From Acidiphilium sp. 37-60-79 (GTDB lineage Bacteria; Pseudomonadota; Alphaproteobacteria; Acetobacterales; Acetobacteraceae): 64,000 bases of DNA. Below the pieces are notes generated by a model. The model saw only the letters and a list, made by a program, of their open reading frames with translations, was not told where the DNA came from and ran no database searches. The DNA is taken from positions 1 through 64,000 of the forward strand of contig NCBV01000012.1 in NCBI GenBank assembly GCA_002279355.1. Reading direction: 5' to 3'. Each line of letters begins with the position of its first letter. The stretch's first letter is position 1. Position numbers and translations under genes: made by a program. Below, one piece after another: positions 4,907 through 32,831 of the stretch.

Positions 4907-5031
4907 AGTGGCCTGCTTATCCCTGAAATTCATTTCATGAATTTCAGCGGCAGGACACTAGAAAATTCAATAATTTAGTGGCCTGCTTATCCCTGAAATT
5001 CATTTCATGAATTTCAGCGGCAGGCCACTAG
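4907..5031. repeat. Composite hairpin repeat, family A copy 1
   Basis: Two nearly identical 55-bp hairpins are joined by AAAATTCAATAATTT. Each hairpin runs from AGTGGCCTGC through TGAAATTCATTTCATGAATTTCA to a terminal (G)GCAGG(A/C)CACTAG. The same module order (hairpin, AAAATTCAAT(G/A)ATTT linker, hairpin, CTAG end) recurs at 28431-28553 and 50998-51108. It begins 25 bp after the lipase stop codon and could also act as a terminator. Confidence 0.85.
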
Positions 5032-5134
5032 ATCAATATTGGTTTAGGTCGAATCGAAAGATTCAACCTAAACCAATGAAATTGATGGGCAAACAAAGTC
5101 TAGAGCGTGATTGATGATAAGCAATCACGCTCTA
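5032..5134. repeat. Composite hairpin repeat, family B copy 1
   Basis: The element starts at ATCAATATTGGTTTAGGT, folds around GAATCGAAAGATTC, continues through a conserved spacer (GGCAAACAAAG) and ends in a perfect 12-bp stem AGAGCGTGATTG / CAATCACGCTCT around ATGATAAG. The copy at 8156-8261 has the same modules in the same order. It abuts family A copy 1 with no spacer, and its last three bases are the stop codon of truA. Confidence 0.85.
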
Positions 5135-5911
5135 GGGCGGAGCGAAAGGGTCGGCGCCAAAATCGACGGCGGCGAGGAGAAGGCCCGCCGCAGGGGCGGT
5201 GGGTCCGGCGGCGGCGCGGGATTTTTGGGCGAGGATTTTGGGGAGGCTGTCGGGGGGGATCGAAAAATCGCCGATGAGTTTGAGGGTGCCGATCATGTTG
5301 CGGACTTGGTGGTGGAGGAAGCTGCGGGCGGCGATGGTGGCGATGATGTGATCGCCGTGGCGGGTGATGGTGAAGCGATCGAGGGTGCGGAGCGGGGAAT
5401 TGGCTTGGCAGGCGGTGGCGCGGAAGCTGGTGAAATCATGTTTGCCGAGGAGCGATTGGGCGGCTTGGTGCATCAGGGTGGCATCGAGCGGGGGTTTGAC
5501 GTGCCAGACGCGGGTGGCTTCGAGGGCGGGGCGGGCGGGGCGGTTGAGGATGATGTAGCGGTAGTGGCGGGCGATGGCGGAGAAGCGGGGGTGCCAATCG
5601 GGGTCGGTGATTGCGGCAGCCTCGAGCACGGCGATGGGGTGGGGGTGCAAATGATAGTTGAGGGCGTCGCGGATCGTGCGGGAGGTAAAACGGTCGGGCG
5701 GGGCGTGGGGCAGGGTGAGCAGGGCGACTTGGCCGGTGGCGTGGACGCCGGCATCGGTGCGGCCGGCGGCGGCGATGGTGGGTTCGATGTTGTTGTTTAG
5801 CGGGGTGGCGGCCTGTTCGAGGCATTGTTGGATGGAGGGGCCGTTGGTTTGGCGTTGCCAGCCGACGAAGGGGGTGCCGTCATATTCGAGTTTGAGGGCG
5901 AAGCGGTTCAC
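5132..5911 (-). CDS. truA: tRNA pseudouridine(38-40) synthase TruA
   Basis: TruA makes pseudouridine at positions 38-40 of the tRNA anticodon stem. The 259 residues match the usual size. Catalytic Asp53 lies in AAGRTDAGVHATGQ, and the N-terminal LEYDGTPFVGWQRQ and C-terminal FLHHQVRNMIGTL motifs are intact. Start is GTG, overlapping the stop of fmt as GTGA, so the gene is the last of a def-fmt-truA operon (translation chain). The TAG stop codon is supplied by the end of the adjoining repeat, so the original C-terminus may have been slightly different. Confidence 0.95.
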   Translation of the reverse strand: MNRFALKLEYDGTPFVGWQRQTNGPSIQQCLEQAATPLNNNIEPTIAAAGRTDAGVHATGQVALLTLPHAPPDRFTSRTIRDALNYHLHPHPIAVLEAAAITDPDWHPRFSAIARHYRYIILNRPARPALEATRVWHVKPPLDATLMHQAAQSLLGKHDFTSFRATACQANSPLRTLDRFTITRHGDHIIATIAARSFLHHQVRNMIGTLKLIGDFSIPPDSLPKILAQKSRAAAGPTAPAAGLLLAAVDFGADPFAPP

Positions 5912-6728
5912 GCGAGGATGGTGCCGACGGGGATGGGGTAGCCACGGAGAAAATCGGCGGCTTCGAGGGGCGTGCGGCCGGGGCGCTGGAGGAGGGTGGG
6001 GCGGATGGCATCGGTGCCGCAGGCGATGGTGAGACGGTCATCGAGCACGGTGCCAGGGGGAGATTGGGTGGGGTGGTGGATGAGGTGGGCGGCGTGGATT
6101 TTGATGATCTCGGTTTTGCCGGTGGCGGTGTGGAGCGCAAATTCGGTGCCGGGCCAGGGCGCGAAGGCGCGGATGCGGCGTTCGATGGTGGCGGCGGGGG
6201 CGGACCAATCGATGGCGGCGTCGGCGCGGGTGAGTTTGGGGGCGTAGGTGGAGGGGCCGGTTTGGGGTTGGGGGGTGGGATTTTCGGTGAGGGCGCGGAG
6301 CAGAAGGCCAGCGCCGAGCGGGGCAAGGCGGTCATGCAGGGTGGCGGCGGTGTCGGCTTCGGTGATTGGGATTGCGGCGTCGAGCAGCATCGGGCCGGTA
6401 TCTAGCCCTGCATCCATTTGCATGATGGTGATGCCGGTTTGGGCATCGCCGGCGAGGAGGGCGGCGTGGATCGGGGCGGCGCCGCGCCAGCGCGGGAGCA
6501 GGCTGGCATGGATATTGAGGCAGCCGCGTCGTGGGATGGCGAGAAAATCGGCGGGGAGGATCAGGCCGTAGGCGACGATGATCGCGGCGTCGAGATCGAG
6601 GCTGGCGAGGGTTTGGGGGGCTGGCAATAGACGGCTTTGATGTGGTGGCCGGCCTGGTGGAGGGCTTCGAGGGCGGGGACGGCGAAGTCGGGCGTGCCCA
6701 TGAAGGCGAGGTTGAGGGGGGTGCTCAT
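5908..6728 (-). pseudogene. fmt: Methionyl-tRNA formyltransferase, broken by internal deletion/frameshift
   Basis: The start (ATG overlapping the def stop as ATGA) opens a proper Fmt N-terminus, [20 protein letters not shown], up to YCQPPKP. After that this frame stops within about 15 codons. Another frame, from about 6620 to 5908, carries the rest: [39 protein letters not shown] and the C-terminal domain. Against E. coli Fmt about 33-34 residues are missing, those of the tRNA acceptor-binding loop (AGRG...) and the strand after it, and the frame shifts. The bases CAAACCC at the junction can be read as PKP in the first frame or QTL in the second, as if two direct repeats had collapsed. It may be a true null allele or a sequence error. 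Confidence 0.85.
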
Positions 6729-7291
6729 CGGTGGGTGCGGGCGGTTGATTTCTCGTCGGCCTTTTCGCGTTGTTCTTTGGCGAGTTTGCGGAGCAAAATA
6801 TTGCGTTTGAGGGGGGTGAGGTGATCGACGAAGAGGATGCCGTCGAGATGGTCGATTTCGTGTTGGATGCAGGCGGCGAGGAGGTCTTCGCCGTCGATGC
6901 GGTGTTTGGTGCCGGCGAAGTCTTCGTAGGTGGCGGTGATGCGGGCGGGGCGGGTGATTTCGGCGTATTGGTTGGGCAGCGACAGGCAGCCTTCTTCGCG
7001 GGTGGCGAGGGTTTCGCTGGCGGCGGTGATGGTGGGGTTGATGAGGATGAGGGGCGTGCGGGCGTGATCGGGGCCGAGATCCATGATGAAGAAGCGGAGC
7101 GAGAGGCCGATTTGCGGGGCGGCGAGGCCGATGCCGGGGGCGCGATACATGGCCTCGAACATGGTGGGCATCAGGTTTTCGAGCGCGGGGCGGTCGGCAT
7201 CGGTGACCGGGCGGGCGCGGGTGCGCAGGCGCTTATCGGGCACGATCAGGATATCGGGGATGGTGCTCAGGCGATGTGGGGCGGCGCTCAT
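6725..7291 (-). CDS. def: Peptide deformylase
   Basis: Removes the N-formyl group from nascent proteins with a bound metal ion. All three family motifs are present in 188 residues: [17 protein letters not shown] (metal-ligand Cys) and QHEIDHLDG (metal-ligand His residues and catalytic Glu). It is first in def-fmt-truA and overlaps fmt by ATGA. ATG start. An intact deformylase beside a broken formyltransferase is notable, because its substrate depends on Fmt. Confidence 0.95.
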
Positions 7292-7897: not shown

Positions 7898-8158
7898 ATG
7901 ATGAATATCGAAAAGTTTGACGAGACGATTGAGGATGGTGTGGTGGGTGCGATGATTGATTTGCATCATCTGAGTGTGGAGCAGTTGGCTGAGTTGGGCG
8001 TTGCGCAGATTGCATATGTGCGCAAGGTGATTACCAATCAGGGGCCGGCGGTGGGGGTATTTGCCGCGAATGGCGCGCCGTTGGCGGTGGCATCGAGCGA
8101 TGATTTGGCGCGCGCGGCGATTGTGCAGAATGATATGGCGCCGGTTTCGGTGCATTAG
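7898..8158 (+). CDS. DUF1150 family protein
   Basis: An 86-residue protein with the DUF1150 pattern (LAELGVAQIAYVRKV followed by VGVFAANGAPLAVA and a DDLARAA helix). The family regularly follows hsp20 in alphaproteobacteria and its biochemical role is not known. AGGAG lies 5 bp before the ATG at 7898; the ATG at 7901 is equally possible. The TAG stop codon is also the first three bases of a family B repeat, so the present C-terminus was set by that element. Confidence 0.85.
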   Translation: MMNIEKFDETIEDGVVGAMIDLHHLSVEQLAELGVAQIAYVRKVITNQGPAVGVFAANGAPLAVASSDDLARAAIVQNDMAPVSVH

Positions 8159-8261
8159 AGCAATATTGGTTTGGGTTGAATCGAAAGATTCGACCTAAAT
8201 CAATGAAATTGATCGGCAAACAAAGGCCAGAGCGAGATTGATGATAAGCAATCACGCTCTA
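8156..8261. repeat. Composite hairpin repeat, family B copy 2
   Basis: Starts TAGAGCAATATTGG and ends ACGCTCTA, so TAGAGC/GCTCTA form inverted ends. The internal GAATCGAAAGATTC hairpin, the GGCAAACAAAG spacer and the terminal GCGAGATTG...CAATCACGC stem (one mismatch) match copy 1 at 5032-5134. It starts exactly at the stop codon of the DUF1150 gene. Confidence 0.85.
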
Positions 8262-8548: not shown

Positions 8549-8623
8549 AAGACCCTGCTAATTTTGAACACTAAAAGGTTAGCGGACAGAGGTGACGTAA
8601 TCAAGGACGAATACGCGGCACTT

Positions 8624-8689
8624 GGACGTCACTGGGACGTCACTGGGACGTCACTGGGACGTCACTGGGACGTCACTGGGACGTGAGTG
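8624..8689. repeat. 11-bp tandem repeat, five perfect units plus one diverged
   Basis: Unit GGACGTCACTG repeats five times without error (8624-8678); the sixth unit is GGACGTGAGTG. Each unit is centred on the palindrome GACGTC, so palindromes recur every 11 bp, about one helical turn. It lies between the serpin remnant and the 3' end of msrA, in no convincing reading frame. Confidence 0.95.
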
Positions 8690-8713
8690 CTGAGCGGTGC
8701 CCTGCGGGGTGCG

Positions 8714-9415: not shown

Positions 9416-10219
9416 TTAAAGCGCGAGGGTGAGGGCGACGGGGACATGGTCAGACGCGCTGGTCCAATCGCGCGCATCGGTGAGGATGCGGGTTTCGCGC
9501 AAGGCCGGGCGAAGATCGTTCGAGACCCAGATATGATCAAGGCGGCGGCCCCGATTGGAGGCGCGCCAGTCGCGATTGCGGTAGCTCCACCACGTATAGA
9601 GTTTGGCCGGTTCGGGGGTAAAATGGCGCAGCGCGTCGGTAAAGCCTTGGGCCTGCCAATCGAGCAGGCCGGTGGTCTCATTAGGGGTGTGGCTAACGAC
9701 ATCGAGCAATTGTTTGTGGCTCCAGACGTCATGCTCGAGCGGGGCGATGTTGAGATCACCGACCAGAATGCGGTGCTGGGGCGGGTGGGCGCGAAAATGA
9801 TCGCGGGTGGCGGCGATGAAATCGAGCTTATGGGCGAATTTTTCGTTTTTGCTCCGATCCGGAATGTCGCCGCCGGCGGGGACGTAGAAATTATCGATGG
9901 TGATGGTTTTGCCGCCGAGGGTGACGCTGGCACCGAGATGGCGGCAATCGTTTTTGCCGCACCATTGGCCGCCTTGGTCGGCCAAAATGAGTGGATAGCG
10001 CGAGAAAATGGCGACACCGTTATAGCTTTTCATGCCGCGCATCAGCACATGGGGCAGGCCGATGCGCTCGGCGATGGCGTGGGGGAATTGATCGTCCGGG
10101 ACTTTGGTTTCTTGCAGGCAGAGAATATCCGGGGCGAGGGTTTCGGTGAGGGTGAGCAAATGCTCCTGGCGCAGGCGGAGCGAATTGATGTTCCAGGTGG
10201 CGATGGTGAGGCGGGTCAT
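9416..10219 (-). CDS. xth: Exodeoxyribonuclease III (AP endonuclease)
   Basis: Base-excision-repair nuclease of the ExoIII/Xth family, 267 residues. Visible motifs are ATWNINSLRLR (metal site Asn), CLQETKVPD (metal-binding Glu), NFYVPAGGD, VGDLNIAPLEHD (catalytic Asp/Asn) and ASDHVPVALTL (final Asp-His pair). Its ATG overlaps the stop of the FAH-family gene by one base (TGATG). In alphaproteobacteria xth often lies close to lolA, as here. Confidence 0.95.
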   Translation of the reverse strand: MTRLTIATWNINSLRLRQEHLLTLTETLAPDILCLQETKVPDDQFPHAIAERIGLPHVLMRGMKSYNGVAIFSRYPLILADQGGQWCGKNDCRHLGASVTLGGKTITIDNFYVPAGGDIPDRSKNEKFAHKLDFIAATRDHFRAHPPQHRILVGDLNIAPLEHDVWSHKQLLDVVSHTPNETTGLLDWQAQGFTDALRHFTPEPAKLYTWWSYRNRDWRASNRGRRLDHIWVSNDLRPALRETRILTDARDWTSASDHVPVALTLAL

Positions 10220-10905
10220 CAGGCAGTTGGGGTGATGGTGAAGGCGAGCGGCGGGATGCCATCGATATGGCAGGTGACATGGTCGCCGACAACGAGGGGC
10301 CCGACGCCATCGGGCGTGCCGGTATAGATCAGATCGCCGGGCGCGAGGGTGACCAAGCGTGACAGGGCGGCGATGATATCGGGCACCGGCCAGATCAGGT
10401 CAGCGAGGTCGCCGGATTGTTTGACCTGGTTGTTGATGGCGAGGGTGATGGCGCCTTTGGTTGGGTGGCCGATTTGGGTGGCTTGGATGATGGGGCCGAT
10501 CGGAGCGGAATGATCGAAGCCTTTGGCCATGTCCCAGGGGCGGCGCATGGATTTTGCTTCATCTTGCAGATCGCGGCGGGTGAGATCGACGCCGACGGCG
10601 TAGCCATAGATCAGGGCGTTGGCGGCGTCCGGGTTGATCGCGCTAGCAGCTTTATCAAGGGCGATGACCAATTCGACTTCGTGATGCAGGCTGGCGGTGG
10701 CGACCGGATAGGGGATTTTCGCGCCGAGGGCGATCGCGTCATTGGGTTTGGTGAAGAAAAATGGCGGTTCGCTTTCGCGGGTATGGGCCGCGTAATTGCG
10801 ACCGACACAGAAAATGCGGCGCACCGGGAAATGGCCGCCACCGGTGATGGGTACGCTGACGGGCGCGGGCGGCGCGAACACAAAATTGTCGCTCATATCG
10901 GCCAT
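10219..10905 (-). CDS. Fumarylacetoacetate hydrolase family protein
   Basis: A 228-residue single-domain FAH-fold enzyme, the size of fumarylpyruvate or acylpyruvate hydrolases. Family motifs are VGRNYAAHTRE, the metal-binding ElxxE-type HHEVELVIAL, YAVGVDLTRRDLQ, KGFDHSAPIGP and IYTGTPDGVGPL. It likely cleaves a C-C bond in an acylpyruvate or decarboxylates oxaloacetate; which one cannot be told. I start it at ATG 10905 (MADMSDNF), which has GGAAAG upstream and sits 10 bp after the stop of the peptidase C26 gene; a longer frame reading into that gene has no family similarity. Confidence 0.85.
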   Translation of the reverse strand: MADMSDNFVFAPPAPVSVPITGGGHFPVRRIFCVGRNYAAHTRESEPPFFFTKPNDAIALGAKIPYPVATASLHHEVELVIALDKAASAINPDAANALIYGYAVGVDLTRRDLQDEAKSMRRPWDMAKGFDHSAPIGPIIQATQIGHPTKGAITLAINNQVKQSGDLADLIWPVPDIIAALSRLVTLAPGDLIYTGTPDGVGPLVVGDHVTCHIDGIPPLAFTITPTA

Positions 10906-10915
10906 GGCTGCTTTC

Positions 10916-11689
10916 CTACCTTGGGCTTTGTGTTGCTGAATAATGGCGCACGGCCTCGCCAAAGCTCGCGAAAATCGCGTGCGAGGCGGGGTCATGCTCG
11001 AAATCATATTCGGGGTGCCATTGCACGCCCAGCGCATATTGCGGGCCGAGCACGCGGATGGCTTCGATGGTGCCATCGACGGCGCGGGCTTCGACCGCGA
11101 GGCCGGGGGCGAGGCGGTCGATCCCTTGATTATGGAGCGAATTCACCGAGAGATGATCGCGCCCCAGCCGGTGCGCGAGGGTGCCGCCGGGGGTGAGCGT
11201 GACATGATGGGCTTTGCCGATGCGCACGGCGGGGTTTTCTTGCATCGGCGTGGAATGATCGAGCCGGTGGGGTAGGTCTTGCAGGCGCTGATGCAGGCTG
11301 CCGCCGAGGGCGACGTTGAGCTCTTGCAGACCACGGCAAATCGCGAGGAGCGGGATATTGCGCGCGACGGCGCGGCGGCTGAGTTGCAGGGTGACTTTGT
11401 CGCGGTCAGGGTCTTCGGGGTGGATATCGGGCGGTTGGGGCGGGCCGCCATAAAATTCGGCGGCGACGTTGCTGCGGCTGCCGGTGAGAATGATGCCGGC
11501 GCAATGATCGAGCAGGGTTTCAATATCGGCGGAATCGCCATTGGCGGGGATCAGGATGGGCACGCCGCCGACCACCTGATCGACGGCGCGAACATAGGTG
11601 CCGGAGGCGGCATGATTGAGCATGCCAAAGACGCCGAACTGTTTGGTGCAGCAGGAGATACCGATGAGGGCGCCGAATCGGTTTATCAT
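10916..11689 (-). CDS. Glutamine amidotransferase-like peptidase C26 (PuuD-like)
   Basis: Class I glutamine-amidotransferase fold of the gamma-glutamyl-GABA hydrolase type, 257 residues. The nucleophile Cys is in LAICRGLQELNVALGG and the catalytic His-Glu pair in GVQWHPEYDFEHD; the SLHNQGIDRLAPGL segment is also typical. PuuD hydrolyses gamma-glutamyl-GABA in putrescine breakdown, but none of the other puu genes is near, so the substrate is left open. It is first of a leftward run with the FAH-family gene and xth. Confidence 0.85.
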   Translation of the reverse strand: MINRFGALIGISCCTKQFGVFGMLNHAASGTYVRAVDQVVGGVPILIPANGDSADIETLLDHCAGIILTGSRSNVAAEFYGGPPQPPDIHPEDPDRDKVTLQLSRRAVARNIPLLAICRGLQELNVALGGSLHQRLQDLPHRLDHSTPMQENPAVRIGKAHHVTLTPGGTLAHRLGRDHLSVNSLHNQGIDRLAPGLAVEARAVDGTIEAIRVLGPQYALGVQWHPEYDFEHDPASHAIFASFGEAVRHYSATQSPR

Positions 11690-11780: not shown

Positions 11781-12450
11781 TCAGCCGCCGCCGCCGTTGG
11801 GGTTGGGGCTGTTATTGGCGATGTAGCGAAAATCTTTGTCGGGGAAGGGTGGGGCGGCGTGCAGATTATAGAGGCTGACTTGGGTGGTGGCGGCTTGCGC
11901 GTCGGTGACCCGCCATTGGCGTAATTCCAGCGGATCGGTTGAGAAAATCAGGGTGAGATGGCCTTGGGCGGCCTTGCCAGTGCGGATCAGCGAAATTTGG
12001 ACCTCGCCGGGGGGCTGGCTGATTTTGGTGACGGTGACTTTGCCGGAGAAATGGACTTTCGGAGAGCGGCAAATTGGTGGTCTGGTTGAGTTGCGGGTCG
12101 TGATAGACCAGCAGGCCAAAGCCTGCGACCAGCAATTGCGGGTCGGGTTTGTCATATTGGAACCGCATTTTGCCGGGGCGCTGCAAAATGGCGTTGCCGG
12201 ATCGCACCGAGCCGTCCGGGGCGACTTGCAGGAATTTTGCGGTGACGGTTTTGAGCCCGTCAAGGTAGGTTGAGATTTTGGCCAGGATGGGCGCATTCTG
12301 GGTGGTGACGGCGGGCGCTGCGACCGGGGCGACGGCTGCCTTGGCGCTGACCGCGAGGATCGGCGCCAAGGCGCTTAGGAATCCGGTGGAGAGAACCGAC
12401 AGGATGAGAGCACCGATACGAACTCGGCTGAAGGCGCTGGGCATGGGCAT
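11781..12450 (-). pseudogene. lolA: Outer-membrane lipoprotein carrier LolA, frameshifted
   Basis: LolA carries lipoproteins across the periplasm from LolCDE to the outer membrane. One frame gives the signal peptide (hydrophobic stretch from IGALILSVLSTGFLSALA) and the N-terminal half through LKTVTAKFLQVAPDGSVRSG, GKMRFQYDKP and YHDPQLNQTTNLPLSE. A different frame gives the second half, KVHFSGKVTVTK, ISLIRTGKAAQGHLTLIF and LELRQWRVTDAQ. About 8-10 residues of the family are missing at the junction near 12060-12068. The bases CTCTCCGAAAGTCC can be read both as LSES and as SPKV, suggesting collapsed direct repeats. An ancestral copy of an essential gene, a real null allele with a second copy elsewhere, or a sequence error are all possible. 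Confidence 0.8.
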
Positions 12451-12475
12451 CGGGGCGGAGTTGAACCTCAAAAGA

Positions 12476-22523: not shown

Positions 22524-23349
22524 CAACGGGTGGGGGGAGCGAAATCGGGCCTTGGCGTTTCGCGTAGTACATCAGGCCAGCGCCGATGAAAATCATCGGG
22601 ATCGACAGGATTTGGCCCATGGTCAGGCCGAAAATCAGGTAGCCGAGGAACCAGTCGGGCTGGCGGAAACATTCGGCGGTGGTGCGCGCAATGCCATAGC
22701 CGAGGATGAACACGCCGGCGATGAAGCCGGAATGGCGGCGCAAATTTTCGCTTCGTGAGACGGTGATCATCACGATGAACAGAATGACCCCTTCGAGCGT
22801 GGCTTCGATCAATTCGGAGGGATAACGGGGCACGTCGGAGCCGGACTGCGGATAGATCATGCGAATGGGAAACCAGGCCGGGGCGGGACGGCCCCAAAGC
22901 TCGCCATTGATGAAATTGGCGAGGCGGCCGAGGAACAGGCCGATCGGCACCGGCACGGCAACGCGATCCGCGAAGCTAAGCATGTTGATGCCGTTGCGCC
23001 GGGCAAAGATCGCGATGGCGACCGCGACGCCGAGGAGCCCGCCATGAAAGCTCATGCCGCCATCCCAGACGGCGTAGGTGCGATCCAGATGATGCAGGAA
23101 ATAAACCGGTTGATAAAAAATGATGTAGCCGATGCGCCCGCCGAGCACGACGCCGAGCGTGGCCCAGGCGAGGAAATCATCGACTTGGGTCGCGGTGGCG
23201 ATGGCGGGGGTTTCGCGCGCGACAAAGCGCATCAGCCGCCAGCCGATCAGCAGAGCGGTGATGTAAGCGAGGGCGTAATAATGGATGGCGAAGGGGCCGA
23301 TTTTTACCAAGATCGCATCGAAATGCGGCCAGACATAGACATGGTTCAT
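22507..23349 (-). CDS. lgt: Phosphatidylglycerol-prolipoprotein diacylglyceryl transferase
   Basis: Inner-membrane enzyme that attaches diacylglycerol to the lipobox Cys of prolipoproteins. The 280 residues form about seven membrane segments; the Lgt signature is GRLANFINGELWGRP, with the preceding HGGLLG and the catalytic-region segments YYALAYI and YPSELIEA. Its ATG overlaps the stop of hldD (ATGA), and it is followed with overlap by the methyltransferase gene, so the operon is translationally chained. The same window encodes several predicted lipoproteins that would be its substrates. Confidence 0.97.
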   Translation of the reverse strand: MNHVYVWPHFDAILVKIGPFAIHYYALAYITALLIGWRLMRFVARETPAIATATQVDDFLAWATLGVVLGGRIGYIIFYQPVYFLHHLDRTYAVWDGGMSFHGGLLGVAVAIAIFARRNGINMLSFADRVAVPVPIGLFLGRLANFINGELWGRPAPAWFPIRMIYPQSGSDVPRYPSELIEATLEGVILFIVMITVSRSENLRRHSGFIAGVFILGYGIARTTAECFRQPDWFLGYLIFGLTMGQILSIPMIFIGAGLMYYAKRQGPISLPPPVDAPAT

Positions 23350-24286
23350 CGGTACGGGTCCGTTTGGTTCAGGAAATCATGGATATAGCGGGCGATGCCC
23401 GCTTCGAGCGTGGTGAAGGGTTTGGTGTAGCCGGTGGCGCACAGGCGCCCGATATTGGCTTCGGTGAAGGATTGATATTGGCCGATCAGGCGGGGTGGCA
23501 TGGGCACGAACTCGATATGCTCGGGGCGATCATGGGCGGCGCAGACGGCGCGAGCGAGATCGTGATAGCTGCTTTGGGGGCATCGAGCAGATGCAGCATG
23601 ATGTCGATCACATCATCGATCCAGATGAAATCGCGCTGTTGGGCGCCATCGGGGATGTGGGGCTGGTCCGAGCGAAACAGGGTGATTGGCTTGCCGGAGC
23701 GCAACTCGTCATGTTTGACTTTGATCACCGAAACCATCGGCCCTTTGTGATATTCATTGGGGCCGAACACGTTGAAAAACTTTAATCCGGCCCAGTGCGG
23801 GGGGGCTTTGCCGGCGGCGGCTTGGGCGAGCGCCCAGAGGTCGAACGCGTGTTTGGACCAGCCATAGAGGTTCAGCGGCGCGAATTTGCGCAGGGTGGCG
23901 AGCGGGGCGGCGTCATCAAAGCCGTTGCTGCCATCGCCATAGGTGGCGGCGGAGGAGGCGTAGATGAATGGAACACTGTGATCGGCGCACCAATTCCAAA
24001 GGATCTGGCTGAGGGCGACATTGGTGCGCCAGACTAAATCGCCATCGCGCGCCGTGGTTTCGCTGATGGCGCCGAGATGGATAATGGCCTCAAGGGGCGG
24101 ATAGGTATCGAGAAAATCGACCAGATCATCGGGGTCGATCAGGCGGGTTGGCGGGTGGCGGCGCAGGTTGCGCCATTTATCGCCCTCGCGCAGCCGATCG
24201 GCGAGCACGGTCTCGGTATCGCGCGCCCAGAGGGCTGCGTGCAGATTCGAACCAATAAAGCCAGCGCCGCCGGTGACCAGGATCAT
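23346..24286 (-). pseudogene. hldD: ADP-heptose epimerase-like protein (HldD/RfaD), frameshifted
   Basis: An NAD(P)-binding SDR epimerase of ADP-L-glycero-D-manno-heptose synthesis. The first frame gives MILVTGGAGFIGSNL, HLGAISETTARD, the catalytic NLYGWSKHAFD and FFNVFGPNEYHKGPMVSV, up to LLDAPKA. A second frame then gives YHDLARAV, EFVPMPPRLIGQYQSFTEAN and YTKPF through to a TGA that overlaps the lgt ATG. The family segment SGIFNLGTGxAxS (about 13 residues, helping to form the sugar site) is missing near 23565-23577 and the frame shifts. Bases CAAAGCAG at the joint read as PKA in one frame and QSS in the other. The intact overlap with lgt shows the reading frame was lost recently or is a sequence error. 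Confidence 0.85.
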
Positions 24287-24366
24287 CGGCGCGCTTATAG
24301 TGAGATGGATCCGATCCGTCATCAGGGCGCGGTCGGTTGCTGCGTTTATTGCCAAGGAAGTGATCC

Positions 24367-32513: not shown

Positions 32514-32557
32514 TCAGCGATAATTTCGGGCGAGAGGCAGGGGATGCGGTGCATGAT

Positions 32558-32650
32558 GTCCGTCCCTCCGCCGGTGCGACCCGGATCAGGTTCAAAGGGT
32601 TGTCGCCTTTGCGACTCTCAGCGGACACGCACTCCGCACCCCTCGGATGG
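32558..32650 (-). promoter_or_regulatory. TPP riboswitch (THI element)
   Basis: Read leftward it has GAGGGGTGC, then GCTGAGAGTCGCAAAGGCGAC, then CCCTTTGAACCTGATCCGG and a closing GGAGGGA. These are the conserved P1-P5 core pieces of the thiamine pyrophosphate aptamer. It lies 65 bp before thiC and should turn thiCOSG down when TPP is abundant, probably by hiding the ribosome binding site, as no strong terminator follows. Confidence 0.96.
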
Positions 32651-32831
32651 AGCGGAAGGTGATCGCCTCGTCCGGTTCTGTCAAGCGCGGGGGCAAAATT
32701 ATTCGATGCGCGTTCACCAATGATTCACTTTTATCGGTCATCAAAGGAGGGCGAATTGGCAAAATGGTGATCGGGATGACAAGCGTGACGCGTGTGCATG
32801 GCGGGCGGTCGGCGCGACGGTGGAGGCGAGA

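Follow-up and report, generated by a model that had tools for sequence, protein, structure and literature searches.

Has a bacterium of the Acetobacteraceae lost fmt, the gene of the formyltransferase Fmt, or is part of the gene absent only from its draft genome? According to one survey, fmt is nearly universal, with one copy in 98.6% of 5,042 genomes (PMC12690207). In the window, the 64,000-nucleotide stretch of Acidiphilium sp. 37-60-79 DNA analyzed here (contig C59), family matches (TIGR00460) agree with the original prediction that the gene is fmt, and the predicted break in its reading frame is present in the sequence where it had been placed. The gene covers 821 nt of the minus strand (821 mod 3 = 2), following def and preceding truA, with ATGA (6728-6725) and GTGA as the respective overlaps (Table 1). 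Its first frame holds 40 Fmt-like codons ending ...AVYCQPPKP and reaches a stop after codon 55, while the remainder is open in a different frame to ...TILA and encodes the remaining portion of the formyltransferase domain together with the entire C-terminal domain; no further frame break or stop was seen within this 3' part. This reading of the two frames, as well as the overlap with def and the intactness of def, had all been predicted correctly. The 3' piece alone (237 residues) scored 205.4 bits against the TIGR00460 cut-off of 201.5 (NCBIfam; model positions 75-305 of 315) and is hence a member of the Fmt equivalog model. A single open frame spanning both Fmt domains and the insertion loop was not found, the coding sequence being divided between two frames and the loop segment missing.

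Table 1. Features of the fmt locus and of the other broken genes. Coordinates are those of the window unless a contig is given.
Feature	Coordinates	Strand	Evidence
fmt, both parts	5908..6728	-	TIGR00460
fmt 5' part, first frame, 40 codons to QPPKP	6609..6728	-	tblastn vs G007, 94.6%
fmt joint, without 115 bp that G007 has	6608..6609	-	alignments with G007
fmt 3' part, other frame; rest of Formyl_trans_N and all of Formyl_trans_C	5908..6608	-	family matches
def, intact peptide deformylase	6725..7291	-	Pfam PF01327 positions 3-155/156; TIGR00079 above cut-off
truA, intact	5132..5911	-	TIGR00071 above cut-off
lolA 5' part, lacking 29 bp at 12062/12063	12063..12471	-	Pfam LolA positions 2-80/165
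lolA 3' part, other frame	11781..12062	-	Pfam LolA positions 90-164/165
hldD (ADP-heptose epimerase) 5' part with an approximate upstream end, lacking 37 bp at 23570/23571	23571..24355	-	TIGR02197 positions 1-233/316
hldD 3' part, other frame	23349..23570	-	TIGR02197 positions 248-315/316
nth, 40 bp missing	C72:103842 (L179 about 3842)		
bchD, 59 bp missing	C8:73820 (L183 about 3820)		

The closest relative compared, G007, is itself a draft (280 contigs, with a coverage of 2.8 stated in the contig title), and its long DNA blocks align with this genome at about 79-88% identity. In G007, fmt is one open frame, from which the window gene differs by a single 115-bp gap, as well as by smaller differences near 6058-6080 that total 33 bp and leave the frame unchanged. 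The alignment thus bears out the prediction that the tRNA-contacting loop and the reading frame were both lost through one deletion. This single deletion stands as a feature of the assembly, and its estimated size of about 34 residues is corrected to 38 codons plus one base. When aligned with 1fmt, the missing segment corresponds to about residues 40-77 of E. coli Fmt and includes the insertion loop with Arg42. The helix and strand that follow the loop presumably fall in the missing segment too. Arg42 of the loop docks on the tRNA acceptor stem (PMC13234167). In family and domain order the gene resembles known Fmt (TIGR00460; PDB 1fmt, 2fmt, and 5uai), and the def-fmt-truA neighborhood is that of the six congeners compared; in contrast to known Fmt, 38 codons and one base are absent from this assembly, and no single frame encodes the enzyme.

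Alignment to fmt of close relatives, which had been proposed as a check, was extended to the 13 genomes of the genus, one of which is this genome and another of which (G011, 88% complete) gave no fmt match. The other 11, all with a readable fmt, keep the segment within one open frame, so chance is not an issue. This conservation also bears on the idea that the break is bridged by the ribosome, that is, that −1 frameshifting at the C6 run before the joint yields a working, loop-less Fmt. The run CCC CCC does immediately precede the joint, and the frame that follows is indeed the −1 frame; however, the joint has no usual X XXY YYZ heptamer, and the product would go without a segment kept in 11/11 congeners, including, by alignment to 1fmt, presumably the helix and strand after the loop. 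The insertion loop and its conserved Arg (PMC13234167) would be missing as well, and we regard this explanation as having almost no probability.

Neither a second fmt nor a comparable loss was found elsewhere. In the whole assembly (3,069,660 bases in 98 contigs, 96.3% complete), PF02911 (Formyl_trans_C) matches the window copy only, which answers the proposed search for another fmt in the negative. PF00551 (Formyl_trans_N) matches two places besides fmt, both rejected as a second copy: the translation of C72:64561-65094 reads as a PurU-type protein, and C72:68205-68747 is a putative PurN by exclusion. Three peptide deformylase genes are present (C59:6803-7255, C8:81520-81990, and C81:12576-13049). 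The original prediction had added that def would be left without its main substrate, which does not follow, as a real loss of fmt is unlikely. The initiator tRNA anticodon arm found no match in this genome, and the same holds for 4/12 other genomes of the genus (5/13 together), while 3/13 of the matches in other genus genomes are no more than 100 bases away from the start of a contig; its absence here looks like that of an unassembled rRNA-operon gene, so the initiator tRNA is uninformative as a clue to adaptation.

Across the family, all 297 genomes of at least 90% completeness (this one included) match the Fmt alignment among the matches listed; 24 of the weaker matches were examined closely, and the others were judged by E value alone. 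These 24 are not strictly the weakest, since G165, G193, G219, G259, and G274 (E values of 1e-123 to 1e-126) were left out. Full-length fmt was found in 11 of them, while four (G029, G085, G137, and G265, drafts of 300-600 contigs) gave paralogue-level matches only, four (G020, G041, G171, and G092) had fmt split between contigs or starting at a contig start, one (G209) had a weak partial match, and four (G210, G248, G249, and G295) had a broken, short, or stop-bearing match. Loss of the loop region as seen here occurred in none of those 24 genomes whose fmt 5' part was seen. As for individual cases, two overlapping pieces make up the fmt match at about 2586371 of G210:C1, in a two-contig assembly, and at about 1362 of G248:C12, and the match at G249:C456:5854-6807 holds two stops.

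Comparison with G007 revealed four further breaks of the fmt type in the same assembly, in lolA, hldD, nth, and bchD (29, 37, 40, and 59 bp, respectively). The five deletions, fmt included, are single, clean, and within conserved genes; none is a multiple of three, although five of five out of frame would occur by chance with a probability of about 0.13 and is therefore weakly telling. They are spread over all three contigs compared (C59, C72, and C8; 43,446, 64,295, and 19,993 aligned bases, together about 128 kb), that is, approximately one per 25 kb. None of the G007 contigs searched matched C81. In G007, each of the five genes gives a single family match in a single frame (LolA of G007 scores below the cut-off of its NCBIfam model and above that of Pfam); here, each gives two pieces in two frames, and no additional stops were seen in the pieces. 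The same type of break thus recurs at unrelated conserved genes, as expected of an assembly artefact, and these four further clean out-of-frame deletions point to bases being missing from the assembly, which is the case that the original prediction itself had named as speaking against it. We therefore consider it highly probable that the fmt break is an assembly artefact rather than a real feature, and the predicted loss of fmt by the organism is, with four like deletions of 29-59 bp in the same assembly, unlikely.

The comparison was controlled in both directions. Among the G007 genes picked on C59 and C72, 92/106 were matched here without a break; the 14 flagged genes comprised fmt, hldD, and nth, which were the only clean internal breaks, nine with a stop only in the first 35 or last 4 residues, which are antisense ORFs or have starts set too far upstream, and two short ORFs (84 and 116 aa) with breaks of no assigned type. 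The gene picker left lolA unflagged, the lolA break resting on the alignments between the window and G007, and the bchD break came from the separate comparison of C8. In the reverse direction, 93/100 genes were matched in G007 without a break; six of the seven flagged had a stop near an end, and the seventh (10219-11076) was flagged at its 5' end. The reciprocal scan of C8 flagged one short G007 ORF of unassigned type (128 aa, own 19487-19870 of L183). Overall, the reciprocal comparison of C59, C72, and C8, in which the smaller C8 gaps were left unclassified, found no clean break of the fmt type in G007.

Gaps of at least 20 bp in G007 on C59 and C72 included two where no own ORF of at least 150 aa runs, one in a diverged stretch, and one of 21 bp that is in frame. 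Conversely, other gaps of at least 20 bp in this genome (C59 24654, 26670, 26673, and 14806; C72 65462) were not counted, having compensating neighbor gaps or lying in a diverged stretch. Ordinary indels between the two genomes fall within diverged stretches where several small gaps cluster, and in this they differ from the five clean gaps. A 104-bp gap of G007, at 8156, coincides with one copy of a repeat in the window: this 109-nt repeat has two copies (91% alike, at 5026-5134 and 8153-8261), each with two palindromes, which flank the truA-fmt-def-hsp20 block, the second being absent in G007, and it resembles a small mobile or REP-type element. Elsewhere in the window, a 56-nt element with an internal inverted repeat occurs at 4907-5032 in two copies (98% alike) 70 nt apart, a tandem array with the 11-nt unit CGTCACTGGGA lies at 8605-8692 upstream of msrA, and a TPP riboswitch (RF00059, 68 bits) is located at 32546-32653 on the minus strand.

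With G007 as a stand-in for the lost bases, the microhomology at the joints of fmt, lolA, hldD, nth, and bchD is 0, 2, 2, 1, and 0 bp, respectively, which points to neither repeat collapse nor slippage. For fmt, the motif CAAACCC at the joint had been interpreted as two collapsed direct repeats. In G007, AAACCC occurs at just one of the breakpoints, and there are 0 bp in common between the two when judged against G007, which differs in sequence, with no sign of a 7-bp repeat; this interpretation is not supported, while a few shared bases at the joint in the true ancestor are possible. Deletion caused by hairpins was likewise rejected: the fraction of background segments at least as stable as the missing one was 0.02 for fmt, 0.75 for lolA, 0.76 for hldD, 0.96 for nth, and 0.33 for bchD, so that the five are not consistently stabler than the background and fmt alone stands out.

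Such small overlaps would fit end joining, and the five clean deletions in about 128 kb could therefore belong to a wave of small deletions by end joining across the whole genome, of the kind that a young symbiont or a damaged strain might undergo, fmt being among the genes hit. Single-base indels and stops would be expected from such a wave too, and none was clear in the 106 genes, the two short ORFs aside. Moreover, lolA is essential in E. coli, from which its loss would be expected to be lethal. We judge a wave of this kind to be very improbable. Alphaproteobacteria have no LolB, and the suggestion that LolA serves both functions there is, for Brucella, a proposal only (PMC10787603). Five recent out-of-frame deletions without companion stops, that in lolA included, would be strange biology, while a faulty assembly explains all five together.

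Selection on the fmt remnant was considered with respect to a real and very recent loss, in which the 115-bp deletion would have inactivated the only fmt, leaving initiation to unformylated Met-tRNA and three def genes in place. Compatible with such a loss are the single copy of fmt, the clean deletion, the removal of both loop and frame, and the comparison of six genes with G007, in which fmt had the highest dN/dS (0.39, NG86) and the lowest identity (82.4%). In addition, Pseudomonas, S. aureus, Bacillus, and M. smegmatis can all do without fmt, as described in PMC7949028 and PMC5680289. However, changes in the 3' part on this branch and on the G007 branch numbered 8:13, 5:16, 4:9, and 4:15 with four of the five outgroups and 11:7 with G012, so the excess change lies mainly on the G007 side, and the 3' part has not evolved faster here than in G007 with 4/5 outgroups. 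The relaxed selection or later decay expected of a real pseudogene was therefore not seen with these four outgroups, indicating that any release from constraint of the sequence beyond the frame shift is recent. This argues against an old loss; an artefact and a very recent deletion would look alike in the test. We find a recent loss improbable too, given that four similar deletions affect unrelated genes elsewhere in this assembly. Little probability likewise attaches to the broader version, in which a free-living Acetobacteraceae relative with a bacteriochlorophyll-synthesis gene has just lost its only fmt and starts its proteins with plain methionine despite three deformylase genes, the other four deletions representing an end-joining burst.

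Returning to the assembly artefact, the bases are missing relative to G007, and the way in which they were lost is what we infer. The draft would be without short stretches of about 30-115 bp at approximately one place per 25 kb, their flanks joined with little or no shared sequence, for example, if pairing information had spanned low-coverage gaps that were then sealed with the absent bases left out. A large number of the pseudogenes in bacterial assemblies have technical causes, and avoiding them takes high coverage (PMC11017572), whereas the same source assigns only low confidence (37%) to coverage as the cause of frameshifts in RefSeq. Like the spurious pseudogenes of draft genomes described there, the breaks found here affect otherwise well-kept genes, several per assembly; they differ in that the gaps span 29-115 bp, a size not treated in the portion of that study drawn upon here. 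This mechanism is a guess; against it, the joints share too little for overlap-based misassembly, and a graph assembler normally needs reads across them.

These findings serve as a warning, since a claim about translation initiation rested on one joint in a draft genome, which comparison of the neighboring genes exposes as one of a series; gene-loss claims from this assembly need checking against reads. The living organism very probably carries an ordinary fmt within a def-fmt-truA operon. If the loss were real, the organism would resemble in its want of a functional fmt the Mollicutes described in PMC4014445, which are reduced parasites without both fmt and def, in contrast to the intact def and two further copies seen here. 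Such a loss of fmt with retention of def, in a bacterium whose genome is of ordinary size, would seldom be met in nature, and would be of moderate interest because fmt is dispensable in several bacteria.
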